Positions 42,558 through 60,312 of a stretch of DNA of 64,000 nt are shown piece by piece. The notes beneath the pieces were generated by a model, which saw nothing but the letters and a program-made list of their open reading frames with translations, was not told where the DNA came from and did no database searches. Position numbers and translations under genes: made by a program. Position 1 is the stretch's first letter. Every line of letters begins with the position of its first letter. This DNA is from Thermococcus sp. SY098 (GTDB lineage: Archaea > Methanobacteriota_B > Thermococci > Thermococcales > Thermococcaceae), in contig NZ_CP141821.1 of assembly GCF_035621495.1 (NCBI RefSeq), positions 1,516,760 to 1,580,759 on the forward strand, written 5' to 3'.

Positions 42558-42570
42558 ATGTCTTTGGACG

Positions 42571-43583: not shown

Positions 43584-43673
43584 TATGTGTTTTATGTGGA
43601 CATCATTTCTTTCTTTTGTTTATGCTTGCTAAAACCAAAATATTTAAATATTCGAGTCATGTTTATTATAATC

Positions 43674-45050
43674 ATGATTCGAAAATTTGTAAACCGGAAG
43701 AGAGAGCTCGAAGTCCTAGAGAGAGCATGGAGGGAAGGATTTCGACTTTTTGTGGTCTACGGGAGAAGAAGGGTGGGAAAGACCGCCCTTTTGAAGAAAT
43801 TCTTGGAGAATAAAAGGAGCATATATTTTCTCTGCTCCCAGAGGGGATATGAGAAAGACATCGAGAGATTTTCTCACGAGATAAGTTCTTTTATTGGTGC
43901 TCCGGTAAGATTCGAAAGCTTTAGGGATGCATTTAAGTTCCTAAGGGGGCTGGGGAGGCTTTTGGTGATTCTTGATGAGTTCTCTTACTTGATAGAGGCA
44001 GACAAGGGTGTTACATCCGAGTTTCAGGAGGTGGTGGATATAGTGCTTGAGGGTTCAGAGATCACCATTATCCTCTGCGGTTCGAGCGTTGGAATGATGG
44101 AGCGTGAGGTTCTCAGCTACAAGAGCCCCCTCTACGGTCGGGCAAGTGGGGTTCTGAAGGTCAAACCATTCCGCTTCTTCGACATGGTCGAATGGTTTGG
44201 AGAGGACTTTGAGAGACTTGTGAGGCTTTATGGAGTCACGTGGGGGATTCCCAGGTACATGGAATTCTTCAAAACGGGGAGCGATGATGAGATTATCAAC
44301 AACTTCTTTGATCCGAGTGCATTTCTTTTCAACGAGGCGAGGCTTCTCCTCATGGAGGAACTGAGGAACCCAGCCAGATACATGCAGATCATCGAGGCCA
44401 TAGCCATGGGGAAAACCCGGCTTAACGAGATCGCTCAGTACGTTGGGATGGAGGCCAAAGATCTATCTGCATATCTTAGGGTGCTCTCGAATCTTGGAAT
44501 TGTGAGGCGGGAAGTTCCAATAACAGAGAGGAAAGCCAAGAGAGGGATTTATGTTATAGAAGATGAGTACTTTCGTTTTTACCACCGCTTCGTCAGTCCG
44601 CATTATGAGGAGATAGACTCCCTCAACCCTGAGCCAGCAATTCAGGACTTCCTGAGGAACTTTAACACATACCTTGGAAAGACCTTCGAAAAAGCAGCCA
44701 GAGAGTTTCTGATAGAACTTAACAAGCATGGCAGGTTGCCATTTAAATTTACGAAGATCGGAAAGTGGTGGCATAAAAATGAGGAGATTGACCTCGTTGC
44801 ACTGGACAAAAGGGAAAATAAGGCTCTACTGGTGGAGGTAAAGTGGAAGGAGCTGAGCGAGAGGGAAGCGAGGGGAGTTCTAAAAGATTTGGAGCGTAAA
44901 AGTGGGCTTGTTGGGTTAGAAAACTGGCAGAAGTATTACGGGGTGATAGCGAAGGGTATTAAAGGTAAGGAGGCTCTTAAAAGTGGGGGCTGGCTCTTGT
45001 GGGATTTGGAGGACTTCGAGGATTTGAATTTTAAGATAAGAAAACTCTGA
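43674..45050 (+). CDS. ATPase with DUF234-like nuclease-fold domain
   Basis: 458 residues. P-loop GRRRVGKT (30-37), Walker B LLVILDEFSYL near 97, sensor ILCGSSVGMM near 133, a winged-helix region near 235-280, and a C-terminal PD-(D/E)XK-like motif NEEIDLVA with VEVKW about 15 residues later. Same family as 37993-39408, but on the other strand and not nearly identical. The ATG is chosen about 27 nt after the TATA-like AAATATTTAAATATT (leaderless). The frame is open further upstream without a ribosome binding site. Confidence 0.85.
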   Translation: MIRKFVNRKRELEVLERAWREGFRLFVVYGRRRVGKTALLKKFLENKRSIYFLCSQRGYEKDIERFSHEISSFIGAPVRFESFRDAFKFLRGLGRLLVILDEFSYLIEADKGVTSEFQEVVDIVLEGSEITIILCGSSVGMMEREVLSYKSPLYGRASGVLKVKPFRFFDMVEWFGEDFERLVRLYGVTWGIPRYMEFFKTGSDDEIINNFFDPSAFLFNEARLLLMEELRNPARYMQIIEAIAMGKTRLNEIAQYVGMEAKDLSAYLRVLSNLGIVRREVPITERKAKRGIYVIEDEYFRFYHRFVSPHYEEIDSLNPEPAIQDFLRNFNTYLGKTFEKAAREFLIELNKHGRLPFKFTKIGKWWHKNEEIDLVALDKRENKALLVEVKWKELSEREARGVLKDLERKSGLVGLENWQKYYGVIAKGIKGKEALKSGGWLLWDLEDFEDLNFKIRKL

Positions 45051-45140
45051 ATTTCGAACATAAGGAGAATAAGGCAATCTCCAGAAATTTGTTGTCTTTT
45101 GAATCTCTGCAAAGAAGAGTAACGCTTCTTTAGAGTTACA

Positions 45141-45178
45141 TTTTCTTTTGAAAGCCTCGCTCTTTAGGAAGGAGGTCA
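45141..45178 (+). mobile_element. IS200/IS605-type end remnant, copy 3
   Basis: TTTTCTTTTGAAAGCCTCGC, then TCTTTAGGAAGGAGGTCAG. It has a deletion of the GCGGGG segment relative to copies 1 and 2. A GTAAC/GTTAC mini-hairpin lies just upstream (about 45119-45138). Confidence 0.5.
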
Positions 45179-45263
45179 GCTTCTCAGCTTGTCTTAACAG
45201 CATCAGGAGGTAATACAAAACACATATATATCTGTATTACAAATATGTCCTTGGGTGAATTAC

Positions 45264-45494
45264 GTGGGAAATGTTATTAGTATTCGTGTTCCGCCAGAAA
45301 TTAAGCACGAAATGGATAAGTTAAAGGGTGAGGTTAACTGGAGCGAGGAAATTAGGGAATTCATAAAAAAGAAAATCAAAGAGCACAAAAAGAGAAAAGC
45401 GCTCCAGGAGGTTGTGGCTTATATCCAAACCTTGCCCGATGCACCAAAGGGAACAGCACAAAAGTTGGTGAGGGAGGATCGTGATAGTCATTGA
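45264..45494 (+). CDS. VapB-type antitoxin
   Basis: 76 residues beginning with GTG. N-terminal strand VISIRVPPEIKHEMD, then EVNWSEEIREFIKKKIKE, a ribbon-helix-helix pattern, and a tail that would bind the toxin. GGGTGA (45253-45258) fits the GTG at 45264 better than the GTG at 45255. Overlaps the VapC gene by 14 nt. The upstream TACAAAACACATATATATC has a TATA element. Confidence 0.82.
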   Translation: MGNVISIRVPPEIKHEMDKLKGEVNWSEEIREFIKKKIKEHKKRKALQEVVAYIQTLPDAPKGTAQKLVREDRDSH

Positions 45495-45897
45495 CTCTTC
45501 GGCCTTTTCAAAGTTCTTATTAAATGAAGAAGGCTGGGAGAAAGTAATCCCATACTTAGACCCCGACTTAGAACCACATGCCGTGGATATGTTGACCATT
45601 GAGACGACGAATGTGATATGGAAATACATGAAAAAGTACAAGCTAATAACGAGAGAACAAGCTATAGGACTTTACAAGCAGATGACAAAGCTCATAGGGG
45701 AGGAGGTAATAATATTGGAGCCAAGTGAAAAATATTTGCAAGAAGCTTTGAAAATTGCCATGGATTATGACATTTCCATTTATGACAGCCTGTTTTTGGC
45801 ACAGGCAAGAAATCTGAAAGCTGAACTAATAACGAGCGATAAAAGACAAAGAGATGTGGCGAGAGAAATTGGAATGGAGGTAGAGTACATAAAATAA
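45481..45897 (+). CDS. VapC-type PIN toxin
   Basis: 138 residues, GTG start. Acidic PIN residues: Asp5 (MIVIDSSAFSKF), Glu in DMLTIETTNVIW, DISIYDSLFLAQA and TSDKRQRDVA. A typical VapC ribonuclease size and layout, overlapping its antitoxin. Confidence 0.9.
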   Translation: MIVIDSSAFSKFLLNEEGWEKVIPYLDPDLEPHAVDMLTIETTNVIWKYMKKYKLITREQAIGLYKQMTKLIGEEVIILEPSEKYLQEALKIAMDYDISIYDSLFLAQARNLKAELITSDKRQRDVAREIGMEVEYIK

Positions 45898-45943
45898 CAC
45901 CCATGAGCGGGATAAATCATGCTTTACAGAAGATTGCAAGGGG
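45897..45943. repeat. Dispersed repeat R2, copy 1
   Basis: CACCCATGAGCGGGATAAAT, then CATGCTTTACAGAAGATTGC and AAGGGGG. Related to copies at 47513-47559 and 49243-49283. It starts at the last base of the vapC stop codon. Confidence 0.5.
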
Positions 45944-45980
45944 GACAGGATTGTTTTCACACCTTTCAAAAACTTATTGA

Positions 45981-46025
45981 TCGTCCTTAAACTCCGTTTC
46001 TTATTTCTTTATCTCGGCGCTTTCA
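45981..46025. repeat. Dispersed repeat R1, copy D
   Basis: CGTCCTTAAACTCCGTTTC, then TTATTTCTTTATCTCGGCGC, where the second hairpin arm is lost (TTTCAGG follows). It lies just upstream of the ATPase promoter. Confidence 0.5.
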
Positions 46026-46059
46026 GGCTGATGGACTGGACAATATTTGAGACACAGTA

Positions 46060-46104
46060 TTGGTAATAGCATTACCAAAATATTTTTAAAGAGTTGATAA
46101 TACA
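46060..46104. promoter_or_regulatory. Promoter with palindromic operator of the DUF4143-type ATPase
   Basis: TTGGTAAT (46060-46067) and ATTACCAA (46071-46078) form a perfect 8-bp inverted repeat directly upstream of the TATA-like AATATTTTTAAAG (46079-46091). GTTGATAAT follows, a further degenerate half-site. The start codon is only 24-30 nt past the TATA, so the message is probably leaderless. The decayed copy at 36684-36750 keeps the same pattern. Confidence 0.55.
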
Positions 46105-46113
46105 AATACCAAC

Positions 46114-47427
46114 ATGATTGAACAGTTTAATCCATGGTGGAAGGGGAAGGAATTTATAGAGGAAGATGAAGATTACAGCAAATGGAAAGAAAGCAGGATT
46201 AAATGGATTCCGGAAGCGATTGAAAAAATTTCACTTGAGCCATTTTCTTTGAATTTCGTATTTGGCCCAAGGCAAGTGGGCAAGACAACTCTCCTAAAGC
46301 TTATCATAAAAAAGCTCTTGGATAATGGAGTTGATCCCAAATCGATATTTTATATGCGGTGTGATTACCTGAGTGATTACAAAGAGCTTATGGAGGTTTT
46401 AGATGAGTACATGGAGTTCAGGAAGATTGAAGGAATTGAGAGCTCTTATTTCCTCTTAGATGAAATCACATTTCCGAAGGAATGGTTCAGAGCAATAAAG
46501 CTCTACATTGACATGGGGAAATTCAAAAGGGATGTTCTAATCCTAACGGGTTCTCTCAGTATGTATCTTAAAGGTGAAGTTGAAACTTTTCCAGGTAGGA
46601 GAGGAAGAGGAAAGGATATTATCATGTATCCTCTGAGTTTTAGAGAATTTGTAAAAGTTGTTGCACCAGAGCTCTACTCAAGAATTCCCAAGATTAAAGA
46701 CGTTGCTGAGATTGAAAAGTGTCTAAAGTTACGCCCATGGAAAGAAGAACTGCATGACCTTTTTATTCTTTATTTAAGGAGTGGTGGGTTTCCAAGGGCC
46801 GTGAAGGATATTCTTGAGAAAGGTAAAATAAGTGAGGAGACTTATGATACTTACCTCTCTTGGATCAGGGGAGATTTGATCAGGCTGGGGAAGAGCGAAG
46901 GCGTCGCAAAAAGGATAATAAAAGCCATCCTTGAGAGGGTTCCATCTTCAGTAGGATGGAACACAATTGCAAAAGAGGTTGAAGTTGGTTCTCATAAAAC
47001 AGTTTTTAGCTATGTTGAATTTTTTGAGAAAAGTTTTGTCCTTAAGGTTCTGCAGTACTTTAATCCTAACACTCTTGAACCAGATTTCAAAAAAGAGAAG
47101 AAAATCCATTTCATAGATCCATTTTTGTATCATCTTTTTTCACGCTGGTGCCTGATTGAGAAGCCGAGTGAAGATAAGATGGTTGAAAGTGTCGTTGCAT
47201 CACATTTGGCCAGAAAATACGACGTTGGCTATTGGAGGAATGGAAGTGAAGTTGACGTGGTAGCAAAGGATGGTATTGGCTTTGAAGTTAAGTGGAGAAG
47301 GAATGCCAAGCCTTCGAGGGTTAGAATAGGGAAAATAAAAAACGTTGTAACTCTCTCAAAAGATGATTTTTCAATTGATCCTTTGATGATTCCGGTTTAT
47401 CTGTTTCTTGCGTGTTTTGATGTCTGA
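46114..47427 (+). CDS. ATPase with DUF4143-like C-terminal domain
   Basis: 437 residues. P-loop GPRQVGKT (51-58), FLLDEITFP near 112, sensor LILTGSLSMYL near 145, and a GRRGRG loop. The C-terminal PD-(D/E)XK-like motif is NGSEVDVVAKDG then FEVKW, with E-X-K intact. A middle winged-helix-like part is at about 270-300. It is bracketed by R2 repeats and R1 copy D. Function unproven. Confidence 0.82.
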   Translation: MIEQFNPWWKGKEFIEEDEDYSKWKESRIKWIPEAIEKISLEPFSLNFVFGPRQVGKTTLLKLIIKKLLDNGVDPKSIFYMRCDYLSDYKELMEVLDEYMEFRKIEGIESSYFLLDEITFPKEWFRAIKLYIDMGKFKRDVLILTGSLSMYLKGEVETFPGRRGRGKDIIMYPLSFREFVKVVAPELYSRIPKIKDVAEIEKCLKLRPWKEELHDLFILYLRSGGFPRAVKDILEKGKISEETYDTYLSWIRGDLIRLGKSEGVAKRIIKAILERVPSSVGWNTIAKEVEVGSHKTVFSYVEFFEKSFVLKVLQYFNPNTLEPDFKKEKKIHFIDPFLYHLFSRWCLIEKPSEDKMVESVVASHLARKYDVGYWRNGSEVDVVAKDGIGFEVKWRRNAKPSRVRIGKIKNVVTLSKDDFSIDPLMIPVYLFLACFDV

Positions 47428-47512
47428 TTAATATCTGTTATCTCATTAAGGTTCCTAAAGTCATCAAAGAAATCATAAAGGGCTCATAAAGGTATCATGA
47501 ATTTGAAAGGGG

Positions 47513-47559
47513 ACTCCCACGAGTGAGGCAAGCAGAGTTTTGCAGAAGATTGTTAAGAA
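47513..47559. repeat. Dispersed repeat R2, copy 2
   Basis: CCCACGAGTGAGGCAAGCAG, then AGTTTTGCAGAAGATTGTTAAG. It lies between the ATPase and the AbiE operon, in direct orientation with copies 1 and 3. Confidence 0.5.
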
Positions 47560-47581
47560 ATGCCGAAAAATTTATTAAGTT

Positions 47582-47600
47582 AGTGACCAAAACAGTCACT
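47582..47600. promoter_or_regulatory. Inverted repeat before abiEi
   Basis: AGTGAC (47582-47587) and GTCACT (47595-47600) flank CCAAAAC, ending 2 nt before the first ATG. A TATA-like AAAATTTATTAAG is at about 47567-47579. AbiEi proteins have a winged helix and are known to repress their own operon through inverted repeats; this placement would block a leaderless start. Confidence 0.55.
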
Positions 47601-47602
47601 AT

Positions 47603-48391
47603 ATGATGAAGAATTACTACCTTTCAAGAACTGAACAGGAATTAATGAGCATTCTTAAGAGTGCGGAGATAGTGACTATTCAAGAGGTAGAGAATCTGTT
47701 CCCAAGGCTAAGTAAGGATATGATTAAAAAGGTGCTCTCAAGCCTCGTCAAAAAAGGCTACCTCTACAGACTTAAAAGAGGGCTATACCTTGTGAATGAG
47801 GAACCGGGAAAGCCTCTGATAAAAAACCCATACAAGATAGCACTCATGCTCTTTCCGGGCTATGTAGCGTTCTCATCAGCATTGAGGCTCTATGGCCTTA
47901 TTGAGTATGAAGCGTTCACGATCTTCGTGGCAACGCCAAGGAAGTCGGGTGAAAAAGAAATTGGGGAGTACACCATAAAAGCTGTTGCCCTAGGTGAAAA
48001 AGCAGTGGGGATAATCATCAAGAACGGGGTCTATACATCCACCTTGGCCAAAACGTTCTTTGACTGTTTTTACAAACCAAGCTACTGTGGAGGCTATTCC
48101 GAGGTAACAAAAGCACTTTATGAAGCTGAGAAAATAGACTGGGACGAGTTCTTGAGCTACTTTAAACGGTTTGCGAGCAATTCTCTCTGCCAGAGGACGG
48201 GCTACATCTTGGAGCTCGTGAAGGATATCGGTGTTGATGTTCCAGAGGATGTCATTGAGTACCTGAGGAGCAGGGTTAAAACATGGACCAAGCTTGTTCC
48301 GACGTTTCCATCCAGAGGAAAAAGTGTTAGAGAGTGGAAGCTGATTGATAACCTCGGAGAGGAAAAAATTTTGGGGTGGGCGTATGGATGA
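47603..48391 (+). CDS. abiEi: AbiEi-type antitoxin/repressor
   Basis: 262 residues. The N-terminal winged helix (about 10-65, ending YRLKRGLYLVN) is followed by the AbiEi core with FPGYVAFSSALRLYGL, which marks the type IV antitoxin family. It counteracts the AbiEii nucleotidyltransferase without direct binding in known systems, and represses the operon. Two ATGs are adjacent at the start; the first is used. The message is probably leaderless. Overlaps abiEii by 8 nt. Confidence 0.88.
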   Translation: MMKNYYLSRTEQELMSILKSAEIVTIQEVENLFPRLSKDMIKKVLSSLVKKGYLYRLKRGLYLVNEEPGKPLIKNPYKIALMLFPGYVAFSSALRLYGLIEYEAFTIFVATPRKSGEKEIGEYTIKAVALGEKAVGIIIKNGVYTSTLAKTFFDCFYKPSYCGGYSEVTKALYEAEKIDWDEFLSYFKRFASNSLCQRTGYILELVKDIGVDVPEDVIEYLRSRVKTWTKLVPTFPSRGKSVREWKLIDNLGEEKILGWAYG

Positions 48392-49178
48392 GAGGATACT
48401 CAAATACACGGCTGCTAGGACGGGACTGGGTTTAAACTATGTTGATAAGGAAGAGAAGATTTCATTGCTCTTAAGACAGCTGTGGGAGATTTTTGGTGAG
48501 AAGGCAATTCTAAAAGGAGGAACTGCACTCAACAGGGTTTATTTAGCCAGGATTGGGGCGGCAAGATTCTCGGAGGACATAGATATCGACTACTTCAACG
48601 GCAACGTTGAGGTATCGGCCGAGGAAATAGTTAAGGGAATGAAGAAAATTAAGGACTTCAATGTGAAAGGGCCAAGAGTCCTGCACAGGACGTTTCGCTT
48701 TGACTGCTATTACACCAATACGCTTGGAAATAGGGATAGAGTAAAGGTAGAGTTTTATCTCAGCAGACCGCCATACATTGAAGCAAAGGTTGAGCTGGTG
48801 AAGTCGCCATTCATTGATAGCTATCCCACGATGTTTAGGGTTTATTCTTTAGAGGATCTGCTTGCAAGGAAGATTGTTGCTTTATACAACCGCATGGAGG
48901 GCAAGGACATCTATGACCTTTTTCATGCTCTTAACATGGAGTTTGAGATGGACAAATTTCTGAAAGCTTTGGAGCTTACCACAAAGTTTTACCACATCGA
49001 GGGAGATTTTTGGGACGAATTGATTAACAAGTTGAGTCAGGCAAAGAAAAATGCCCGTCAGATCGGTAATTCAACCAACCACTTTATTCCCAAGACGCTA
49101 CGTCCGAACTGGGAGGAGCTCATTGAAAGCCTGCGCTTCAGGATAGAGGAATTGAGAAGGATGAAAGAGGATATTTAG
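48384..49178 (+). CDS. abiEii: AbiEii-type nucleotidyltransferase toxin
   Basis: 264 residues. The nucleotidyltransferase signature is clear: LKGGTALNRVYL (near 34-45) then RFSEDIDIDYF, with a later VKVEFYLSRP strand and LLARKIVALYNR. AbiEii toxins add nucleotides to tRNA and stop translation, giving phage exclusion in bacteria. The ATG (MDERILKY) is chosen because it sits at the end of abiEi and matches family starts. Complete and probably functional. Confidence 0.9.
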   Translation: MDERILKYTAARTGLGLNYVDKEEKISLLLRQLWEIFGEKAILKGGTALNRVYLARIGAARFSEDIDIDYFNGNVEVSAEEIVKGMKKIKDFNVKGPRVLHRTFRFDCYYTNTLGNRDRVKVEFYLSRPPYIEAKVELVKSPFIDSYPTMFRVYSLEDLLARKIVALYNRMEGKDIYDLFHALNMEFEMDKFLKALELTTKFYHIEGDFWDELINKLSQAKKNARQIGNSTNHFIPKTLRPNWEELIESLRFRIEELRRMKEDI

Positions 49179-49242
49179 AAAAATCGGAGTAACTAAAAAG
49201 GGAACTTGTAATCCTTCGATGCTATCACGATTAAATGGTGAA

Positions 49243-49283
49243 ATCCATGAGCGAGGCAAGCGGTAAAGGATTGTTAAGGGGGC
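49243..49283. repeat. Dispersed repeat R2, copy 3
   Basis: ATCCATGAGCGAGGCAAGC, then GGTAAAGGATTGTTAAGGGGG. Direct repeat of copy 2 on the other side of the AbiE operon. Confidence 0.5.
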
Positions 49284-49411
49284 GGAGATAGTTTTTTTGC
49301 CGGAACGGTTATCTCGATGTTTTTTGGGTTTTTGGGCAGGGCGGTGATAGCGAGGTATTTTTCGACTTCAGAGCATGATATGTTTAATTTAGCTTTGACT
49401 GTTTGGGACAT
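49274..49411 (-). CDS. Small hypothetical protein or gene remnant
   Basis: A 45-codon frame from an ATG (49411), reading MSQTVKAKLNISCSEVEKYL, then an AITALPKNPKNIEITVPAKK tail ending SPPP. Codon use looks coding, and the frame is open 7 more codons upstream. CAGGGGC before the ATG is a weak ribosome binding site. It may be the 3' end of a lost gene. The rest of the 500-nt gap (49179-49679) holds repeat R2 copy 3 and the STT3 remnant. Confidence 0.35.
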   Translation of the reverse strand: MSQTVKAKLNISCSEVEKYLAITALPKNPKNIEITVPAKKLSPPP

Positions 49412-49556
49412 AGCCCCTGTTGTGTCTTCTTTTGGAATCCCTGTACTTCAGGACGGGAATCATTGCAAGATTTAATTTAGGATAACATTTTTAGGAGTGA
49501 GTTGCTTATTTAAAACAGCAGTTGGTATTGCAGCGATAATCCCAAGGTGGTACTTT

Positions 49557-49652
49557 ATGAGAAAACTCGATAAGATATTTGAGCCAAAAGTTGCATTGCC
49601 TTTGATAATTTTAATTGCTGCAGTTTTCAGAGTGATTCCATTGAGGTATTAA
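49557..49652 (+). pseudogene. 5' fragment of an AglB/STT3 gene
   Basis: 31 codons, MRKLDKIFEPKVALPLIILI then AAVFRVIPLRY, then TAA. This matches the first 34 residues of the intact AglB gene at 50989 (IFEPKIALPLIALIA, RLVPLRYKY), with a small indel near the front. After the stop, traces (AAGTATAGGTATAAGG) suggest the homology was cut there. The fragment and the intact gene flank the flippase as direct repeats. Confidence 0.75.
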
Positions 49653-49679
49653 GTATAGGTATAAGGAGGTATCAGAACA

Positions 49680-50966
49680 ATGCAGAAAATAAAAAAAGAT
49701 ATCTTCCGTTTGCCCTATCTATCTACTCTTTTCACGTCATCCTTATATAGGAACTCAATTTATTTGATGCTTTCCAGCATTTTGGGAGCTGGTTCGGGAT
49801 TTATTTTCTGGATAGTTGCTGCTAGATTTTATTCTTCTGGAGATATTGGGATAGCTTCTGGAATTGTTTCGTCTTTAAGAATTTTAGGTATGCTTTCTGT
49901 TGTTGGGCTTGATTTAACGCTTGTACGATTTTTATCTGAGAAAAAGGAAAAATCAAACTTAATAATTAGTGCTATCTTGTTTTCCTCTGTTATTTCAATC
50001 TTGCTTTCAATTGTATTTCTTATTTTTATCAATTTTATCTCTCCCTCATTGTCGATTTTAAGGATACCAAAATATGCAAGCCTGTTTGTACTTTTCACTA
50101 TTTCATTGTCTATAACGTTTATTCAGGGGCAAGGAGTTTTTGTAGCGTTTAGGGAAGCAAAATACACCCTTATTCAAAACTTAGCTATGCTCATTAGAAT
50201 GATGCTTTTGCCTTTCCTTGTAACACTTGGTGCTCTTGGTATTTTTTTATCCTTTGGACTTGGGATATTTTTTGCTGCCATTATTGGTTTTATTTTAATG
50301 GTAAAATATCTTCACCTTAGTTTTAATAAGGTACCCGAAGTTAATGGGTTATTTGAGCTGATACCTTTCTCTTTAGGAGTGTATTTGGTTAGAATTTTTG
50401 AAAACTTACCAAGCCAAATTTTGCCAATATTGGTACTTAACGTGTTGGGCCCTGTAGAAAACGCATATTTCTTCATTGCATGGTGGACAATGTTTTTTAT
50501 TACGATGATTCCAAGAATGACATCATTATCTTTAGTAGCTGAAGGAAGCTATGATACAAAAACTTTTAATCAAAAGCTCTTGGGGAGTATAAAATTTGTT
50601 GTACTTCTAACATCTATAGCAGTGCTTATCTTTTTCTTCTTTGGTCAGTTTATCCTTTTAATATTTGGTAAGGAGTACGCTATACATTCTTTACACATTT
50701 TAAGGATTCTTTTGTTAGGAAACATTCCATATTCGATTAACGTTCTTTATGTTGCCAATATGATAGTTAAAAAGGACGTTAAAAAAGCAATTTTGATTTA
50801 TGGAACTATCTCTTTAAGCACGATTTTACTTGGTTACATTTTCTTAGGCTTTTTTGGTAGTTTGGGTATAGGCTATGCATGGATACTTGGAAATGTTATG
50901 GTAATGCTTGCAATTTTTGCATATGTATTTAAAACTCTTAAGTTTCTAATAGTAATAAGAAAATAG
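49680..50966 (+). CDS. Oligosaccharide flippase (Wzx/MATE-like PST family)
   Basis: 428 residues with about 12-14 hydrophobic helices and few charged residues between. The N-terminal LYRNSIYLMLSSILGAGSGF and later IASGIVSSLRILGMLSVVGLD-like segment fit polysaccharide transport proteins that flip lipid-linked oligosaccharides. AAGGAGGTATC precedes the ATG. Next to AglB, it probably flips the N-glycan precursor. It may have been inserted, as AglB 5' sequence is found on both sides. Confidence 0.88.
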   Translation: MQKIKKDIFRLPYLSTLFTSSLYRNSIYLMLSSILGAGSGFIFWIVAARFYSSGDIGIASGIVSSLRILGMLSVVGLDLTLVRFLSEKKEKSNLIISAILFSSVISILLSIVFLIFINFISPSLSILRIPKYASLFVLFTISLSITFIQGQGVFVAFREAKYTLIQNLAMLIRMMLLPFLVTLGALGIFLSFGLGIFFAAIIGFILMVKYLHLSFNKVPEVNGLFELIPFSLGVYLVRIFENLPSQILPILVLNVLGPVENAYFFIAWWTMFFITMIPRMTSLSLVAEGSYDTKTFNQKLLGSIKFVVLLTSIAVLIFFFFGQFILLIFGKEYAIHSLHILRILLLGNIPYSINVLYVANMIVKKDVKKAILIYGTISLSTILLGYIFLGFFGSLGIGYAWILGNVMVMLAIFAYVFKTLKFLIVIRK

Positions 50967-50988
50967 TAAGAGCATTCCAGGTGAGAGT

Positions 50989-53328
50989 ATGAAAAAGTTG
51001 AGAAATATTGAATCAATATTTGAGCCAAAGATTGCCTTACCACTGATAGCATTGATTGCAACAATATTTAGATTGGTTCCATTGAGATATAAGTATCTGT
51101 TTGGTTATGATCCCTACTTTCATTTGGCTTACATTGAGGAAAGCTTGAAGGCTGGATACTGGATTAACTTTTATCATTTAGCTAATGCTCCATGGGGAGT
51201 TTTGATGGATAAAAGAGGACATCCCCTTGGTTTTTATGTAACTCCTGTATATATTTGGAAGTTCTTGAAAATTTTCGGAGTTTCTTTTTATAATGCATTC
51301 AGGATTACACCAGTTATTTTTGGTGTTTTAACTGTAATTTTCTTTTATCTGAGCATGCTCAATTTTTACGGCAAAAAAGAGGCGTTCTTTTCAGCCTTCT
51401 TCCTCTCCGTGATGTTCGGCCACATCTTCAGGTCATCTGCGAACTACTACAGAGGAGACAACTACATGCTCTTCTGGTACTCCATCGCATTATACGGAAT
51501 TTCACTTGCCTTAACAAAAACCAGAAGGGCATGGAGGTACAAGAGGTTTGCCTTTTATTTAATCCCAGCTTTTGCAAGTGGATTTGCGAGTATTTTCTGG
51601 AGTGCATATTATCCAATTTTTGTATTTCTGCTTGGAAATGTTGTGTTTTTGGCAATTGGAGCTTTTGTCTTAGATAAAAAAGAATACTTTAAGCATTCGA
51701 TTGCTTTAACACTCTCTACAGCTTTTGGTGCTTTATTTGCTAACTATCTCGGTGGGAGGTTTAGATATGGCATGTTTGGTTTTATGAAAGGAGGTTCTCA
51801 GAAAATATCCGAAACTCTTGGGTTGAGTCTCGGGAAAATAAACGATGTTTATCTTTTGGTTCACATTAAATACTTGGTCCCTTTGACGATAATATTGGTT
51901 GTGTTACTCTGGACAGTCATTAAAGTCTTACCAAAGGATAAGCGCGTTAGATTTAGTGTTTTGAGTATTGGAGGTTTAATTATTGTTATAATTGCTTTCG
52001 AAAGATTTGAAGTCCTAAAAAGTCTAATTTCTGGCTTTGGAATTTTTAAAGAAGCTCCCATCTTGGAGACAAGGCATTCAACATTAGGAGATCTCTGGAA
52101 TGCTTATAATATTGTTCTCTTTTTAATTCCATTGTATGCTTTTGGCTTTTCAAGCAAGAAACGAATTATTTTTAATTTCATGATGCTTGGATTTCTAATC
52201 CCAAGTATTTATCTGATTTATGTTTGGGCGAGATTTCTATTTATTGCCTCAATGGCAGTGGCATTAATGGGTGGTGTTGGCTTAGTCAGTTTTTATGAAT
52301 TTTTAAACTCTAAACCCAATGGCAAGAAAGCTTTAGCATTAAGTCTGGGTCTCTTAGTTTTAGTCCCAACTATTAGTGCAGTTTCAGGATTTGAGAGAGT
52401 CTATGTCGAAAAACCATTAATAAATGACCACTGGATTCGGGCTTTAGTTTGGCTGAAAGACAACTCCAATGAAAATGATGTTGTTTTAGCTTGGTGGGAT
52501 TATGGAGCTTGGATTGAATATTATGCGAGAAAAGGAACAGTTGTACAAATGGGTGCCAATAATCCAAATGCTAAAATTACTGCCAAGTATTTTCTCGGGA
52601 ATGTTAGTAATTATTGGCTAATGAAAAGAGGCGTTGATTATGTTATTGTAAGCTATGACACTGCTCTTAAGTTTGGAGCAATTTTAGATACAGCAAATGT
52701 TTCAAAGGGAGATTACTTTTTGGCAGTTCTACCGCTGGTTTCAAGAGCTGGAGCATTGATCTTCCAACAAGGACCATATACAATAACAGCAAGGCCCGGA
52801 AAGGAGTGGAACATATTAATTAACACTGGAACTGCAGTATTTTCACCTAAAGAGGCTTTCTTGGAGTATAAGAATAGTATTACAAAGCTCAACATTACGG
52901 CAAAGAATGTTGCCAATGCTTATGTTTATTTGAATTTGAACTATGGTTATGCTGTTTTGATGAATGAGGAAACCTTTAACACGACTTTAGCCAGGCTTAT
53001 GTTCACAAATGAATATTCAAAGGATTACCAGCTTGTGTATTCCGATGGGGGTTATATCAAGATATTCAAGTTTAAGCATCCCAATGTTGTAGTTAATCAG
53101 ACAAAGAATGAGATAATATTCAACTTTGAAAATGCTACTGGAACAGGTTTAGGTGTGTTTGGATATTTGGAAAATGGAACTTTAGTGTTTAAGAAGTGGT
53201 ACCCAGTAAAGGATTTGAAGCAATTTAAATTATCTAGAGGTGTGTTTAATAATTCTTCTATGGCTATGATACAATATATCTACATGAAAGACAATGTATG
53301 GTTAGATATGGGAATATTTAGACAATAA
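50989..53328 (+). CDS. aglB: Oligosaccharyltransferase AglB/STT3
   Basis: Transfers the lipid-linked glycan to Asn in N-X-S/T sequons outside the membrane. 779 residues: about 13 hydrophobic helices to residue ~460, then a soluble C-terminal domain. The first external-loop acidic motif is GYDPYFH (Asp41), the second RGDNYM near 160, and the sequon-binding WWDYG motif is at 502-506. It is shorter than the ~970-residue long Pyrococcus form, similar to short AglB paralogues. GGTGAGAG precedes the ATG. The genome may have other copies. Confidence 0.93.
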   Translation: MKKLRNIESIFEPKIALPLIALIATIFRLVPLRYKYLFGYDPYFHLAYIEESLKAGYWINFYHLANAPWGVLMDKRGHPLGFYVTPVYIWKFLKIFGVSFYNAFRITPVIFGVLTVIFFYLSMLNFYGKKEAFFSAFFLSVMFGHIFRSSANYYRGDNYMLFWYSIALYGISLALTKTRRAWRYKRFAFYLIPAFASGFASIFWSAYYPIFVFLLGNVVFLAIGAFVLDKKEYFKHSIALTLSTAFGALFANYLGGRFRYGMFGFMKGGSQKISETLGLSLGKINDVYLLVHIKYLVPLTIILVVLLWTVIKVLPKDKRVRFSVLSIGGLIIVIIAFERFEVLKSLISGFGIFKEAPILETRHSTLGDLWNAYNIVLFLIPLYAFGFSSKKRIIFNFMMLGFLIPSIYLIYVWARFLFIASMAVALMGGVGLVSFYEFLNSKPNGKKALALSLGLLVLVPTISAVSGFERVYVEKPLINDHWIRALVWLKDNSNENDVVLAWWDYGAWIEYYARKGTVVQMGANNPNAKITAKYFLGNVSNYWLMKRGVDYVIVSYDTALKFGAILDTANVSKGDYFLAVLPLVSRAGALIFQQGPYTITARPGKEWNILINTGTAVFSPKEAFLEYKNSITKLNITAKNVANAYVYLNLNYGYAVLMNEETFNTTLARLMFTNEYSKDYQLVYSDGGYIKIFKFKHPNVVVNQTKNEIIFNFENATGTGLGVFGYLENGTLVFKKWYPVKDLKQFKLSRGVFNNSSMAMIQYIYMKDNVWLDMGIFRQ

Positions 53329-53354
53329 AATATTACTTGATGTCTGGTTATAAT

Positions 53355-55523
53355 CTATGGAAAATAATATATCTCACATCCATCACTAGAGTATATTTTG
53401 TTAATTTTCGAGTGTTTTTGAGTATATAGAATGTTATTAAAATTTACAACTTCTGCAAATGTTGCCCATATTAGTAATTTATCTGGAATTACCCCAATTT
53501 TTTTAGTATCAAGAGAAAAAAGAGATAAATATAGATAGGAATCATTGTTCAAGGTTTGATTTTTAACTAAAGGAAAAATATTTGATGAACCAATTTTCCA
53601 GAAATAAGGTGTCATTCCGCTAACCATTAGTTTTGGAATGCTTTCAATGCCTCCATATATGCTTTTATCTCCGATTTTTCTCTTTCCCCATTTTGCACCT
53701 ATAACTTCCGGTAGAAATATATAGTTCCTGTAAAAATATTCCTTTTCTTGAATACTGCCCTTATATAATATTCTGGGCTTACTTATCTCGTTTGATGGTC
53801 CTATATTATACCCCCAGACTACTTCAGCAATAAATCCAGAGTTGAACAATAAAAAGATGCACAAGAAAATGCCAATAAATGTTAGGGTGTTATTAAAATT
53901 TAAATGCAGTACTTTTCTCAAATATCTAAAAAACTCAGCAATACCTGAAATACCAAATGGAGCTAATATAAATGAACTAATGTACCATGTCCTGCCTCCT
54001 TCATATTGAGTTACACCTGGAAGATATGGCAAAATTAAAATTATAAAGAAGGGAATCGCTAACATAGTAGATAAACGAAATGTCCTTTTTCTTATATCTT
54101 CATATCCTTGTTTTATAATTCCAGTTACTATAAAAATTGCCATTAGAATATAAAGATAAATTAGCACTTTGAAATATATAGGGAAATTTCCCAGTAATAA
54201 CTTGGTACTGTATTTTTCATTAAAGAAAATGGTTCGGCTGAATTTTCTAATTGTTAAAAGAAATTGAATTATAAAATCAAGGATAACTTTAAAGTTATAA
54301 CCATTTGCAGTATGTTGATACCACAAGAAAATTAAAACAAAATACATAACAGTACTTATTCTTAACGTTTGTATCTTTTTTTCTAGATATCTGGCAAATA
54401 TAAGAGAGAAACACAATAAACATAGGGAGGAAAATAAAAAGATATAGGCAGTGCCATAATGAGAGATAATTAATGAAAACATGAATACTGCATTTAATAT
54501 CGACTTTTTTGAAATATTAATGTTTTCTTCAAACATTAGTAAAATCAAAAGTAACATAAATAACCCTGCTAAGGTCATTTTCATAGTAACTGATGACCAC
54601 AGAAAAGATATGAACATTGATAAAAAGAAAAAACTTGAAAAAAATGATAGTTTTTTATCTACGTTTATTTTATAAAATAACTTATATAAACCAGGAGGAA
54701 TAAATGAGAATAAAAGAGGTACACCTATTCTATATATCCATATTATTTCCGTCTCACATATATTCTTAAATAGTGGAATTAGGACACTTACACTGCCCAT
54801 ACTAGCTAATGCTGAAGAAATATGGAGCATTTCTATTGAATTCTGGGCTTTATTAGTTGATACTAAAAAGGCATATTCATGTACATTGTCAGTAACATGA
54901 GGAAAAACTCCGGACAATGAACTATAAAATGTAAGAGAAAAGGTGATTGTCCAAAGAATTAGCGGATAATTCTTTTGTGATTGTTTGCTTAATGAGACCA
55001 ATAGGGGAATAAGAGAAATGATAAAAAACAATGACAAAGTTATGGTATTATTATTATAAACTCTTAGTAAGTAACTTCCAAGAAACGATATTATAGGAAG
55101 CAATAGTAGAATCAAAAGCTTTATAATAGTAGGTACGATATTGCTTGTGTTTATATTAATAGTAATGTGATAGTCGTTATTGTTGTTATTGAGAACATAG
55201 AAGAATACCAAAAATGTAGTTAATATAATCAACGTAATTATTATATTAGTTGTTTGTTGAAATATTATTCGTATAATTCCAACAAGCATCAAAAACGACA
55301 GACTTAATCCAACAGAATATAGGATATATTCAACAAAATCAATATTATCTATTTTGAGAATACCTAAAAGCAGGACTCCTGGAACAAATGTCAAATAAAT
55401 AAAGCCAATAATCTGGCGTAAATATGGGATATTTATATCTAACTTCTCTAGACCTATAGCACCTATAAATGAAATTTGAATTGATAGTACTATAATTAAA
55501 ATATTCCTTTTTGATATTTCCAT
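53355..55523 (-). CDS. DUF2206-like polytopic membrane protein
   Basis: 722 residues with about 16-18 hydrophobic segments over the first 580, then a globular end. The start (ISFIGAIGLEKLDINIPYLR, FIYLTFVPGVLLLGILKIDN) resembles the Thermococcales DUF2206 proteins found in surface-polysaccharide loci; a role in glycan polymerisation or transfer is inferred only. Very AT-rich with many ATA and ATT codons, unlike the purine genes. Convergent with aglB. Confidence 0.78.
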   Translation of the reverse strand: MEISKRNILIIVLSIQISFIGAIGLEKLDINIPYLRQIIGFIYLTFVPGVLLLGILKIDNIDFVEYILYSVGLSLSFLMLVGIIRIIFQQTTNIIITLIILTTFLVFFYVLNNNNNDYHITININTSNIVPTIIKLLILLLLPIISFLGSYLLRVYNNNTITLSLFFIISLIPLLVSLSKQSQKNYPLILWTITFSLTFYSSLSGVFPHVTDNVHEYAFLVSTNKAQNSIEMLHISSALASMGSVSVLIPLFKNICETEIIWIYRIGVPLLFSFIPPGLYKLFYKINVDKKLSFFSSFFFLSMFISFLWSSVTMKMTLAGLFMLLLILLMFEENINISKKSILNAVFMFSLIISHYGTAYIFLFSSLCLLCFSLIFARYLEKKIQTLRISTVMYFVLIFLWYQHTANGYNFKVILDFIIQFLLTIRKFSRTIFFNEKYSTKLLLGNFPIYFKVLIYLYILMAIFIVTGIIKQGYEDIRKRTFRLSTMLAIPFFIILILPYLPGVTQYEGGRTWYISSFILAPFGISGIAEFFRYLRKVLHLNFNNTLTFIGIFLCIFLLFNSGFIAEVVWGYNIGPSNEISKPRILYKGSIQEKEYFYRNYIFLPEVIGAKWGKRKIGDKSIYGGIESIPKLMVSGMTPYFWKIGSSNIFPLVKNQTLNNDSYLYLSLFSLDTKKIGVIPDKLLIWATFAEVVNFNNILYTQKHSKINKIYSSDGCEIYYFP

Positions 55524-55550
55524 TGTACACCCCTTTGTCTTGGTTTTAAA

Positions 55551-56825
55551 TTAATTTGCTAATTTTTTGCTAATTTTTGATATTCTTAATTTTTCTTCTT
55601 CATGTTTCATATGCTTCTCAGCAATCGTTTTTAGTTCCTTTGCAAGTTTTGGATGTTCATCTATTAAATTTTCTTTTTCATAAGGATCCTCTTTGAGATT
55701 ATATAGTTCATCTTCTTGTTTCTGGCCTGTTATGAACTTCCAATCTTTAAGTCTTATAGCGGTACCTACACCTCTAACATATGAAATTGTCCATTCTTGG
55801 TTACTCCTAAATATACTACTATGTGGAAATTGATTTTCTTCTCCAATTAATTCTAAAATTGTGGATCCTAAGCTTATAAGGGAAACAGGATTTTCAAATT
55901 TCCCTTTAATGTCAGCGTTATATATCACAAGGGGTATATGTATATGCTCCTCATATAGTGAGACATAGTCATGACCATAAACTCCATGTTCTCCAAAGGC
56001 TTCTCCATGATCTGCATGAATGATGAAAATAGGGTCAAGGTCTTTTAAGTCATTCCATAGCTTTTTAACAAAGGAATCTGCATATGTTATTGAGTCATCA
56101 TATGAATCAATTAACCAATTCCTTTCCGTGTTAGATAATCTATCTCTCCAGTCAACTTTTCTTACTTTCCAGTTTGAGTATAATGCTCCAAAAAGACTAC
56201 TGTATTTCCTAAACTTCCTTGGAGGTAGATAAGGATAGTGAGTATCGAGTAATAGAATCCATAAAAATATTGGCTTGTTAGCTTTTTCGATATACTCAAG
56301 TATGAGGTTATAGTAGCTCTCCCATGGCTTAAATATCTCGCCTTTAAGCAGGAAGTTTTTAAGATTTCTTAAGGTAGCAAATATTCCTTGCCTATTTGAT
56401 TTAAATGCCTTTTGTAATATTTTTGAATATAGTCCTCTAGATGTTTTTTCATTTAAAAAATCGTGAAAATACTTAAATCCCTTATCGAATCCATAATAGT
56501 GTGAAACATAAACATTTGGAGTAATTCCAATTGTAGAATAACCTTTCTGAGAGAGTATTTCTGGTAACGTTTGTTTATTTTTTATGAATTCTCTCCAAGG
56601 ACGGGGATCTAATGTTCCATTACTTATTGGAGGATATTCCCCTGTAAATATTGAACTCATAGAAAGCGGCGTAGCAAGTGTGGCGGCAATTGCATTTTGG
56701 AAATATGCTCCTTTTTTTGCTAACTTATCGATAAATGGAGTTGTTTTCCGTTTATATCCCATAAAACTACAATGATCGGCTCTTAGGCTATCTAAAGTTA
56801 TCAATACTATGTTTCTCTTTTCCAT
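55551..56825 (-). CDS. Sulfatase-superfamily enzyme
   Basis: 424 residues. Metal-binding LITLDSLRADHCSF (Asp12) and HADHGEAFGEHG near 280 place it in the sulfatase / alkaline phosphatase superfamily. The C/S-X-P-X-R formylglycine motif is not visible at the expected place, which reads ATLATPLSMSSIFTG, so it may be a phosphotransferase or use Thr/Ser directly rather than being a true sulfatase. There is no signal peptide. The ATG is chosen after GGGGGTTGG; an in-frame ATG ten codons upstream is less likely. Confidence 0.82.
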   Translation of the reverse strand: MEKRNIVLITLDSLRADHCSFMGYKRKTTPFIDKLAKKGAYFQNAIAATLATPLSMSSIFTGEYPPISNGTLDPRPWREFIKNKQTLPEILSQKGYSTIGITPNVYVSHYYGFDKGFKYFHDFLNEKTSRGLYSKILQKAFKSNRQGIFATLRNLKNFLLKGEIFKPWESYYNLILEYIEKANKPIFLWILLLDTHYPYLPPRKFRKYSSLFGALYSNWKVRKVDWRDRLSNTERNWLIDSYDDSITYADSFVKKLWNDLKDLDPIFIIHADHGEAFGEHGVYGHDYVSLYEEHIHIPLVIYNADIKGKFENPVSLISLGSTILELIGEENQFPHSSIFRSNQEWTISYVRGVGTAIRLKDWKFITGQKQEDELYNLKEDPYEKENLIDEHPKLAKELKTIAEKHMKHEEEKLRISKISKKLAN

Positions 56826-56924
56826 GATTTTCCAACCCCCTTTGGTATTTATCACTTTTTACACAATGAAAGGAAATTTGACACTTAAAGCATTAATTTA
56901 TTGTAAATGTTGTAATTATCTTAC

Positions 56925-57467
56925 TTATAATTCTAGACCCATTTTATAGGATCTGTAAGTCTTTTTATCGACAGGACACTTCGTTTTTATCTCTCCTTCA
57001 ATAACAAATCCATATTTTTTATAAAGATTAATTGCGGGAGTATTCTGAGTAAGCACATCTAACTCTATTTTTTTGATTTCGTTTTCTTTGGCTGTCTTAA
57101 TTAATCTTTTCATGAGTAAACTACCGATATGATGTCCCCTATATTCTTTACTGACTACAATTCCTAAATTGGCAGTATATTTATTAGGAGAATACTTACC
57201 TTTAATATGGAGATATGCAAACCCTGCTATTTTTTTGTTTTCAATGTCCTCTGCAATCAAAGCTAAAAATGTAAATTTGGGGATAATTTTCCTAAGATAT
57301 TTATTAAACATGCTAGACAACGCAATGTAAGTAATCACAGGTAGTAATTTCCATTTTTGTAAAGGAAAAGGATGGAAAAGTTTTTTGTCTTCTTCTGGTA
57401 GGGAAAGATATAAGGTACTAAACGAGAAGATATCTCTTAATTTCATTTTCCTTACTTTTATTTCCAT
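56925..57467 (-). CDS. GNAT-family N-acetyltransferase
   Basis: 180 residues with the acetyl-CoA loop VVSKEYRGHHIGSLL near 107-121 and the TPAINLYKKYGF motif near 146. In this locus it may acetylate an amino sugar made by the DegT aminotransferase encoded just upstream on the same strand (gap 18 nt). The substrate is unknown. Confidence 0.85.
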   Translation of the reverse strand: MEIKVRKMKLRDIFSFSTLYLSLPEEDKKLFHPFPLQKWKLLPVITYIALSSMFNKYLRKIIPKFTFLALIAEDIENKKIAGFAYLHIKGKYSPNKYTANLGIVVSKEYRGHHIGSLLMKRLIKTAKENEIKKIELDVLTQNTPAINLYKKYGFVIEGEIKTKCPVDKKTYRSYKMGLEL

Positions 57468-57485
57468 AATAAACCCCTCATAATA

Positions 57486-58586
57486 TTATTTTATTACTTT
57501 TTTAATAGCTTCACTGATTATTGCTATGTCATTTTTTTCTAATTTTGAACTAGTAGGTAAATTAATTCCATTCTTGGAAATTTTTTCTGCAACTGGGAAG
57601 CTTTTATTAGTCTTATAAATGGGTAATGTATGCAATGGATAGAAGAAAGGTCTTGTTTCTACGCCTCTTTCTTTTAATTTTTCCATTAGTTCATCTCGAC
57701 TTACATTAGAAGAATCTTCTAGTACAATTGAGTATAACCAATAAACATTTTTTGCCCAAGGCATTTCTGGATGTAGTTTTATTAATCCTTTTTCCTCTAA
57801 CTCTCTTAACTCTTCTGAATACCATTTAGCAATTAGTCTCCTTTTTTCTATAAATTTATCCAGCTTTTTTAACTGAGCAACTCCTATTGCTGCTTGTAAA
57901 TTTGTCATCCTATAATTAAATCCAATAACATCATGCCAATACCGTTTTTTGGGGTTCATACCATGATCTCTTAAAATTCTCATTTTTTCTGCTAATTCTT
58001 CATTATTAGTTAAACACATCCCACCCTCCCCAGTTGTTATAATTTTATTCCCATAGAAACTAAAGCATGATATATCTCCAAAACTTCCAACTTTTTTTCC
58101 TTTATATTCTGCACCATGAGCTTCTGCTGCATCCTCTATGAGATACAATCCATGATCCTCTGCAATATCTTTAATCCAATCCATATCACAGGGATGACCA
58201 TATAAATGCACTACAATTATAGCTTTAGTTTTGTCTGTAATTTTTTCCTCAATTTTTTCTGGATCAATGCACCAATATTCAGGATGAGAATCAACAAAAA
58301 CAGGTTTAGCATTACAATATGTTACTGCGTTTGCTGTGGCAACAAATGTTAAAGTTGGAACTATAATTTCATCACCACTTGTTATTCCAAGTGCTGTTAA
58401 GGCGAGATGCAACGCTGTGGTTCCATTGGATGTTGCGATCCCGTATTTTGTACCTATGTATTTTGCAAATTCCTCCTCAAACTCTTTTATAAATTCTCCT
58501 TTGGAGGATATCCAGCCACTTTTAATAGCTTCAATGACATTTTTTAATTCTTCTTCTCCAAGAAGAGGCTCGGAAACAGGTATCAT
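57486..58586 (-). CDS. DegT/DnrJ/EryC1/StrS-family sugar aminotransferase
   Basis: 366 residues, PLP-dependent. SNGTTALHLAL near 55, the SFGDISCFSFYGNKIITTGE segment with the PLP Lys near 184, and WLYSIVLED late. Makes an amino sugar from a keto nucleotide sugar. With GDP-mannose 4,6-dehydratase two genes upstream, a GDP-4-keto-6-deoxymannose product (as in GDP-perosamine) is a good guess, and the GNAT would acetylate it. Overlaps the HD gene by 4 nt. Confidence 0.9.
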   Translation of the reverse strand: MIPVSEPLLGEEELKNVIEAIKSGWISSKGEFIKEFEEEFAKYIGTKYGIATSNGTTALHLALTALGITSGDEIIVPTLTFVATANAVTYCNAKPVFVDSHPEYWCIDPEKIEEKITDKTKAIIVVHLYGHPCDMDWIKDIAEDHGLYLIEDAAEAHGAEYKGKKVGSFGDISCFSFYGNKIITTGEGGMCLTNNEELAEKMRILRDHGMNPKKRYWHDVIGFNYRMTNLQAAIGVAQLKKLDKFIEKRRLIAKWYSEELRELEEKGLIKLHPEMPWAKNVYWLYSIVLEDSSNVSRDELMEKLKERGVETRPFFYPLHTLPIYKTNKSFPVAEKISKNGINLPTSSKLEKNDIAIISEAIKKVIK

Positions 58587-59266
58587 ATCACACCACTCTC
58601 CTTTAAATCTTGAAAGAGTTCAATAATAAACCTTTTCATAAATTCAAATCTTCTGAGTGCAATCTTCTTGGCTTTTTCAGTCCAAAACATATTGATCCAT
58701 TGAAGTTCTTTTCCAATAATTTCTTCAATAATATATTTGTTGGTTCTCATCTTGTTATTGGGGATTAGTTTTAAGTTTTTTTCAATCCAACTTGTTATAT
58801 CTCCGTTAAATCCGACTCCAAATGGGTTCTCTTCATCATATTCACTCATGTGCTTCAAAACGGCAGACTCCACAACCCTCATTAAGCCAATTGCTCCCAT
58901 TCCATCTAACTTATCAGCATCTTGAAGAATTTTCCCTTCTAAATATGTTGGTTCATCAATACGATCATGTTCTTCTATACTTTTGATAGCTATCTCTACT
59001 GTATCGGCATCAATATCAAAGTTCTTAAGGAATTCTTTTGCAATTTCTGCAGAGATTTTGGCGTGATTCTTCTCATTTTCAATTCTACCAATGTCATGGA
59101 ACAATGCAGCTAACTCCAGAGCAAGTTTATTAACATTGTAATCTTCAGCTATCGTTAAAGCAAGTTTTCTAACCCTGTTAGTATGTAACCAATCGTGTCC
59201 TGGTGAGTATGTATTTAGGAAGGTATTTCTGACAAACTCTTCAGCTTCTTTAATAATATCCCTCAT
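58583..59266 (-). CDS. HD-domain phosphohydrolase
   Basis: 227 residues with the HD motif pattern: HDWLHTNRVR near 24, FHDIGR near 52, EEHDRIDEPT, and LQDADKLDGMGAIGLMRV, as in small metal-dependent phosphohydrolases. Coupled by 4-nt overlaps to both neighbours, so it belongs to the glycan operon. A role in nucleotide or sugar-nucleotide cleavage is inferred. Confidence 0.85.
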   Translation of the reverse strand: MRDIIKEAEEFVRNTFLNTYSPGHDWLHTNRVRKLALTIAEDYNVNKLALELAALFHDIGRIENEKNHAKISAEIAKEFLKNFDIDADTVEIAIKSIEEHDRIDEPTYLEGKILQDADKLDGMGAIGLMRVVESAVLKHMSEYDEENPFGVGFNGDITSWIEKNLKLIPNNKMRTNKYIIEEIIGKELQWINMFWTEKAKKIALRRFEFMKRFIIELFQDLKESGVI

Positions 59267-60312
59267 ACTCTCAATCCTCTTGTTAATATTCTTGTCTCAT
59301 TTGGGTAATTAGGGGCGTCCCATGGAAATCTTTCTCCATTAAGCCATCTCTCCCATCTTTCTAAATCCGCTTTCACCATTATTTCCACAAGTTTATTAAA
59401 TCTCACCTTAGGTTCCCACCCTAGTTTCTTCTTAGCTTTTGAGTAATCTCCCTGTAAAAAGTTAACATCAATTGGTCTGAAAAATCTCTTGTCGATCTTG
59501 ACATATTCTTGCCAGTCTAAATCAACTATATCAAAGGCTTTTTCTACGAATTCTCTTACACTGTGGGATTCATTAGTGGCTATGACGTAATCGTCTGGTT
59601 CTTTTTGTTGAAGCATCAACCACATTGCTTCAACGTACTCTGGAGCATACCCCCAATCTCTTTTTGCATCCAAATTTCCGAGTCTTAATTCTTTTTCTAT
59701 TCCAAGAGCTATTTTGGCAACAGCATTTGATATTTTTCTAGTTACAAATTCTAATCCTCTAAGTGGACTTTCGTGATTAAAAAGAATTCCATTACATGCA
59801 AATATCCCATATGCTTCTCTATAGATTCTTGTCATCCAATATCCATATAATTTGGCAGCAGCATAGGGGGATGCTGGTTTAAAGGGACTTTCTTCATTTA
59901 CTGGCTTATTAGAACCATTTCCATATAACTCACTTGTTGCAGCGTTATAGAATTTTATTTCTGGATTTATTTGTCTTATAGCTTCTAGAATTCTGGTTAC
60001 TCCTAGACCTGTAATGTCTCCTGTTCCAATAGGTTGTTCAAAACTTGCTCCTACGAAACTTTGAGCAGCTAAATGGTAAACTTCATCTGGTTCTGCTATT
60101 TTTATTGCCTCAATAATAGAAGCTGCATCCACTAAGTCTGCGGGTATCAGATTTATTTTCTCAAAAATTCCTAATGCTTGTAAACGCCAGAAGTTGGGTG
60201 TACTAACTCTCCTATATGTACCGTAAACCTCATACCCTTTATCTAAAAGGAATTTTGCCAAGTATGCACCATCTTGGCCAGTTATACCAGTAATTAAGGC
60301 TCGTTTTGTCAT
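59263..60312 (-). CDS. gmd: GDP-mannose 4,6-dehydratase
   Basis: 349 residues, extended SDR. TGITGQDGAYLAKFLL (near 8-23), TSELYGN and YAAAKLYGYW give the Thr/Tyr/Lys catalytic set, NHESPLRGLEFVTRKI is the GMD-specific nucleotide-sugar box, and RDWGYAPEYVEAMW follows. Produces GDP-4-keto-6-deoxymannose for the aminotransferase downstream. Overlaps the GT4 gene by 4 nt. Confidence 0.93.
   Translation of the reverse strand: MTKRALITGITGQDGAYLAKFLLDKGYEVYGTYRRVSTPNFWRLQALGIFEKINLIPADLVDAASIIEAIKIAEPDEVYHLAAQSFVGASFEQPIGTGDITGLGVTRILEAIRQINPEIKFYNAATSELYGNGSNKPVNEESPFKPASPYAAAKLYGYWMTRIYREAYGIFACNGILFNHESPLRGLEFVTRKISNAVAKIALGIEKELRLGNLDAKRDWGYAPEYVEAMWLMLQQKEPDDYVIATNESHSVREFVEKAFDIVDLDWQEYVKIDKRFFRPIDVNFLQGDYSKAKKKLGWEPKVRFNKLVEIMVKADLERWERWLNGERFPWDAPNYPNETRILTRGLRV

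Follow-up and report, generated by a model that had tools for sequence, protein, structure and literature searches.

Why does the beginning of an aglB gene occur twice in Thermococcus sp. SY098, once on each side of a flippase gene? The window in which this arrangement lies is a 64,000-nucleotide stretch of contig NZ_CP141821.1 (positions 1,516,760–1,580,759). The original prediction read the two copies as a duplicated aglB 5' end and proposed that the flippase, alone or with a different aglB, had come in by recombination at the aglB start, so that the glycosylation type could switch. Our analysis indicates that the locus is very probably the product of a one-way xenologous replacement of 13 kb, which left 5' stubs of the displaced genes under the old promoter.

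The left-hand fragment does encode the first ~31 residues of an AglB. Its open reading frame (MRKLDKIFEPKVALPLIILIAAVFRVIPLRY, 31 codons) begins at the ATG at 49558 and ends with a TAA stop at 49651–49653, a slight correction of the bounds first proposed (49557–49652); the homologous stub runs over 49558–49656 on the plus strand, where the homology stops at TAAGTAT, and the match also reaches further left than had been noted. Positions 49558–49649 form a direct repeat with 50999–51090 (73% over 92 nt, spacing 1441), the longest direct repeat within 46–57 kb. A gapped alignment of the stub with the start of the intact gene gave 77% over 82 nt (E 6e-12), and the longest exact run shared by the two is 14 nt. 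The two copies flank the flippase gene at 49680–50966, as described before. The repeat is thus real, but the fragment was not copied from the intact gene at 50989: the stub shares 73–77% of its nucleotides with that gene, versus 80–93% with the aglB genes of relatives.

The resident aglB starts were located by a DNA search with window positions 49180–49675 as the query, in a comparison set of one genome per species. The stub with ~95 bp of upstream DNA is 80–93% identical to the aglB start in four genomes of the window's genus (G002, G003, G004 and G006) and in one of another genus of the same family (G070). The values are 93% for G003, 89% for a second G003 locus, G004 and G006, 84% for G070 and 80% for G002. 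Each match ends at window position 49656, within the aglB sequence AAGTAT, and one additional T in the window relative to the aglB of the relatives produces the TAA stop of the stub. Relatives whose aglB begins at the fragment and lacks the flippase had been anticipated, and this is what was found: aglB starts exactly with the fragment in all five genomes (twice in G003), with no such flippase in between. These matches indicate that the stub is the remainder of the resident aglB (aglB1), not a copy of the present gene.

The conserved DNA upstream of the stub (49463–49557, plus strand), a putative promoter and ribosome-binding region, is together with the stub 84–93% identical to the DNA upstream of aglB1 in G003 (both loci), G004, G006 and G070. 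Reading its open frame as the C-terminus of an old flippase was rejected, as no convincing flippase match extends past residue ~80 and stops are present there in G002. Further left lies the frameshifted 5' remnant of a gene from an older flippase family, flip1 (49221–49440, plus strand, ~65 codons). Its segment 49269–49406 is 80% identical to G002 and 86% to G006 at the nucleotide level, and in tblastn it shared 52–58% amino acid identity with intact flippases of 509–519 aa over their first ~65 residues. In G002 and G006, as in the window, a 5' remnant of this ~510-aa flippase directly precedes aglB, so the arrangement of flip1 remnant and aglB predates the swap.

The gene that follows the stub, flip2 (49680–50966, plus strand), encodes a predicted Wzx-type flippase of 428 aa (PF01943, 41.9 bits, cut-off 28.2). 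Its best relatives in the family share 30–34% amino acid identity over most of their length, and a flip2-like gene before aglB is absent in G002, G003, G004, G006 and G070. Next comes aglB2 (50989–53328, plus strand, 779 aa), whose product has the features of a short-type AglB oligosaccharyltransferase, namely an STT3-PglB core (PF21436, 27.7 bits, cut-off 23) and a WWDYG-type motif in the form AWWDYGAWI, and is predicted to transfer a lipid-linked glycan to Asn. It is 56–68% identical to the resident aglB. In a quick maximum-likelihood tree, aglB2 groups with the AglBs of two other genera (G010 and G020, SH-aLRT 98), apart from the resident aglB1 clade (97), which marks it by phylogeny as a xenolog of aglB1. 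No close donor of flip2–aglB2 was found among 81 family genomes by DNA, nor in protein searches, and the case for transfer therefore comes from phylogeny and composition.

The aglB2 gene is itself mosaic. A tract of ~420 nt (about nt 1800–2220 of the gene) is 82–93% identical to resident-type aglB; identity falls to as little as 37% in the middle of the gene, and the 3' end is divergent once more. The exchange may have used the resident-like tract as its homologous anchor, or the tract may stem from later conversion. Since this part of aglB2 is resident-like, the island does not form a single, wholly foreign segment. AglB mosaicism is also seen between G006 (L076) and G002 (L068), where identity is 42–65% at about nt 660–1300 and 70–97% over most of the rest. 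In G070, the resident-type aglB is truncated after about 240 codons (L078:9735–10766; G070 851735–852766), with rmlABCD upstream, and no replacement short-type aglB was found.

The proposal that a flippase and a different aglB arrived at the resident aglB start agrees with the position of aglB2 outside the resident clade, but it underestimated the event, which spans 13 kb and ends on the far side in a second, mirror-image stub. The replaced island (49657–62678; 13,022 bp) lies between the two stubs and has a GC content of 30–37%, versus 40–43% in the conserved flanks. Between 49657 and 62679 its DNA matches congeners only in the aglB tracts and in weak matches, and its genes have either no match or one of 25–68%. 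The left flank is syntenic at 86–97% amino acid identity up to 49178, and right-flank orthologs resume from about 68520, in the genome's continuation past the window. Besides flip2 and aglB2, the island holds eight genes running towards them on the minus strand, mostly concerned with sugars and glycosyl transfer. They encode a DUF2206 membrane protein (53355–55523; PF09971, 115 bits), a sulfatase-family protein (55551–56855; PF00884, 149 bits), a GNAT acetyltransferase (56925–57467; PF00583), a DegT/LegC-like sugar aminotransferase (57486–58586; PF01041, 488 bits; TIGR04181, 398.6 bits, just under the cut-off of 420), an HD-domain protein (58583–59266; PF01966), a GDP-mannose 4,6-dehydratase (gmd, 59263–60312; TIGR01472, 416.9 bits, a narrow pass of the cut-off of 415), a GT4 glycosyltransferase (60309–61436; PF00534) and an AglJ-like GT2 in place of the resident GT2 (61452–62591; PF00535; TIGR04182, 192 bits, under the cut-off of 325). 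The DNA left of aglB (34251–49178) is dense in toxin–antitoxin and ATPase genes (VapBC, PIN, AbiEi/AbiEii, DUF234 and DUF4143 ATPases), and each congener retains a different subset of these directly before aglB.

At the right-hand join, the first ~40 codons of the resident GT2 remain as a 5' stub (62679–62797, minus strand, 119 nt), which is 90% identical at the nucleotide level to the start of the intact GT2 in G006, 84% in G004 and 80% in G002 and G003. The incoming GT2, a different GT2 and the last gene of the island, starts about 90 nt after this stub. In G006 the GT2 region is single-copy and adjoins the right flank. In G004 one GT2 stub (1957454–1957553) is followed by a cassette with a DegT gene and then by an intact GT2. 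Beyond the stub in the window lie a VapBC-type toxin–antitoxin pair (62811–63430, minus strand; PIN 56 bits, the VapB model below its cut-off) and a second GT2 upstream region with 5' stub (63425–63722, minus strand), which matches G004 DNA at 92% over 66 nt of the GT2 start and at 75% over 281 nt of a second G004 copy. A third copy of the resident GT2 upstream region and start lies at 66020–66401, in the genome's continuation (L080). The second and third copies are older than the right-hand stub. Over 62679–64000 and L080:1–4500 (window numbering 64001–68500), the GT2 5' region thus occurs three times, its copies separated by VapBC, nucleotidyltransferase and PIN genes, and it looks as if toxin–antitoxin genes had repeatedly inserted at the gene start while restoring it.

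The gene content also points to a change of sugar. An intact orphan rmlD is present at 41706–42557 (plus strand; TIGR01214, 353 bits, cut-off 224), 86–89% identical in amino acids to its counterpart in those congeners that have it. RmlC has no match in this genome, and RmlA and RmlB orthologs are absent from it, the best matches being 38% and 34%. The rmlABCD genes stand beside aglB in G002, G003 and G006 and upstream of aglB in G070; G004 is without rmlB and rmlC orthologs, and all that it retains of rmlA is a 5' portion (214 of 352 residues) immediately ahead of its flippase. Exchange of the island is unlikely to have removed rmlABC directly, since the order rmlD–ATPase–aglB is shared with G070, whose rmlABCD lie upstream of aglB. 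The place of rmlABC in this lineage was probably to the left of aglB, so that their loss would have been separate from the swap. GDP-mannose 4,6-dehydratase and an aminotransferase of this kind yield GDP-4-amino-4,6-dideoxymannose (perosamine) by known pathways. With rmlABC missing, rmlD orphaned, and a GDP-mannose dehydratase and DegT gene in the island, we predict that the glycan probably changed from dTDP-rhamnose to a GDP-4-amino-4,6-dideoxyhexose, perosamine-like, as its sugar source. In G003 (L071:16757–18844) and G006 (L076:3440–5530), the rmlB frame is open over 695–696 codons, and an in-frame insertion of ~1 kb, which may be an intein, divides the ortholog.

Three observations support replacement at this site: the flanks are conserved and syntenic, aglB2 falls outside the resident orthologs, and remains of the displaced genes stand at the joins. 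A foreign segment of 13 kb would have displaced the resident N-glycosylation genes, with joins falling within the first 33–40 codons of the resident aglB and GT2, so that the 5' ends of both genes stayed in place, that of aglB with its upstream region. Because flip2 starts only 27 nt past the stub's stop, with AAGGAGG just upstream of it, there is scant space for a separate promoter, and apart from the stub, 49463–49557 is the nearest DNA able to drive flip2–aglB2. The left operon would therefore be read from the old aglB promoter, with the 31-codon frame as a leader, and flip2 would be translated from its own strong Shine–Dalgarno sequence. Entry at the aglB start, as originally predicted, is supported; homologous recombination exactly there is doubtful, as nothing is shared past 49656. 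The joins probably arose by one of two routes, and the data fit both: homology on one side with illegitimate end joining on the other, or insertion next to the resident gene, which, once redundant, lost its 3' part by decay. The swap, the loss of rmlABC and the toxin–antitoxin insertions may have followed one another in any order.

It could also be that the swap is real and the 5' stubs are chance deletion scars among decaying genes, their position being without meaning. We surveyed 51 sequence blocks from the family, 2.18 Mb in total and for the most part stretches of ~40 kb surrounding aglB, and counted orphan gene fragments outside ORFs of 150 aa. Across all families, 45 fragments were three-prime, 42 five-prime and 15 internal, as chance scars would predict; these counts contradict a general 5' bias of remnants in glycan loci, only the flippase family being clearly skewed. 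Fragments of the flip1 family, in contrast, were 14 five-prime (2 of them weak, at 53–54%), 1 three-prime and 2 internal, although 3' ends were nearly as detectable as 5' ends in a control (21–23 versus 23–27 of 27). The next same-strand gene after the flip1 stub is a flippase of another family in 5 of the 14 cases (G014, G019, G033, G042 and G025), and all 3 GT2 stubs (G019, G028 and this genome, G000) are followed by another GT2; with G070 excluded, such a gene never lies upstream. The apparent flippase case in G070 was dropped, being the 3' part of that genome's own decayed flippase. Against a base rate of same-function neighbours of ~3%, binomial P is 3e-5 for GT2 and 2e-6 for the flippases, the latter count including the discarded G070 case, and the survey's thresholds and classes were picked while viewing the data. 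The cases are not independent, one flippase family being common to G019, G033 and G042 and one GT2 family to G019 and G028, and the independent like-for-like events are fewer, numbering perhaps five or six when both joins of this locus are counted. Given the flippase skew and the like-for-like neighbours, we consider chance scarring unlikely.

We suggest, tentatively and as a possible reading only, that in Thermococcales the 5' ends of flippase, GT2 and oligosaccharyltransferase genes (promoter, ribosome-binding site and first 30–110 codons) act as fixed expression sockets that repeatedly capture non-orthologous genes of the same function downstream, the layered stubs recording past glycan types. 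Stubs of another kind, 3' stubs of a ~450-aa protein family, recur in the glycan loci of G003, G009, G012, G021, G038, G054, G055, G063 and G070, in some genomes directly before the flippase start, as a second recurrent boundary.

Site-specific integration of a mobile element at the start of aglB, which would make the two copies att sites, would account for a cassette between direct repeats and for the similar repeats around the toxin–antitoxin modules at the GT2 start. The repeats are divergent, however, flip1 stubs elsewhere end at varying points (about codon 39 to 111), no recombinase or integrase was found among the island ORFs scanned against Pfam, and the window's only tRNA genes are 22 kb distant, which makes this reading very improbable. 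Slighter still is the chance that the fragment arose by tandem duplication of the start of the present aglB, or of the flippase and aglB together, and then decayed: gene family and orientation agree and the spacing is close, but the stub is 93% identical to G003 aglB1 versus 73–77% to the adjoining aglB2, its upstream DNA matches the resident aglB of other genomes and not the DNA upstream of aglB2, and aglB2 groups elsewhere in the tree. As for the switch originally envisaged, in which recombination between the direct repeats flanking the flippase would remove it and toggle the glycosylation type, it is scarcely credible: the repeats are 73–77% identical and share no exact run longer than 14 bases, the genome contains no silent version of the former aglB, and no recombinase was found among the scanned island ORFs.

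Viruses and mating partners recognize archaeal surface glycans, and the proposed one-way replacement bears on how these come to differ. Such change is known mostly from differing clusters and not from their joins, and here both joins are visible. The stubs name the displaced genes, and earlier glycan types may be readable from the genome. Flippase and GT2 stubs followed by a gene of like function would offer a countable signature of swaps, testable across Thermococcales.

In bacterial O-antigen and capsule loci, variable flippase, transferase and sugar genes lie between conserved flanks, and exchange usually proceeds via the homologous flanks. The present locus has the same layout of variable genes and conserved flanks, but unlike in those exchanges both joins cut into the outermost variable genes within their first codons. 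A limited full-text literature search turned up no account of 5' stubs marking the joins in archaeal glycosylation loci. In Haloferax, aglB is described as having undergone xenologous displacement, and the aglB-proximal gene clusters as variable (PMC5867893). There, as here, aglB and neighbouring glycosylation genes were exchanged among related archaea, and the surface types differ as a result; the passages drawn on here describe the haloarchaeal exchange as homologous recombination and mention no such scars (PMC5867893), whereas in Thermococcus sp. SY098 the joins can be read to the base, each marked by the 5' stub of a displaced gene. The effector–immunity modules of the Vibrio cholerae type VI secretion system (T6SS) undergo stepwise displacement, for which a process resembling homology-facilitated illegitimate recombination has been proposed, with one homologous anchor and one illegitimate end (PMC5361080); such a scheme may also apply here. 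In both systems an incoming module displaces a resident gene of the same function and the remains form an ordered array, but where Vibrio keeps whole immunity genes downstream, the archaeal locus keeps non-functional 5' stubs upstream, by the promoter (PMC5361080).
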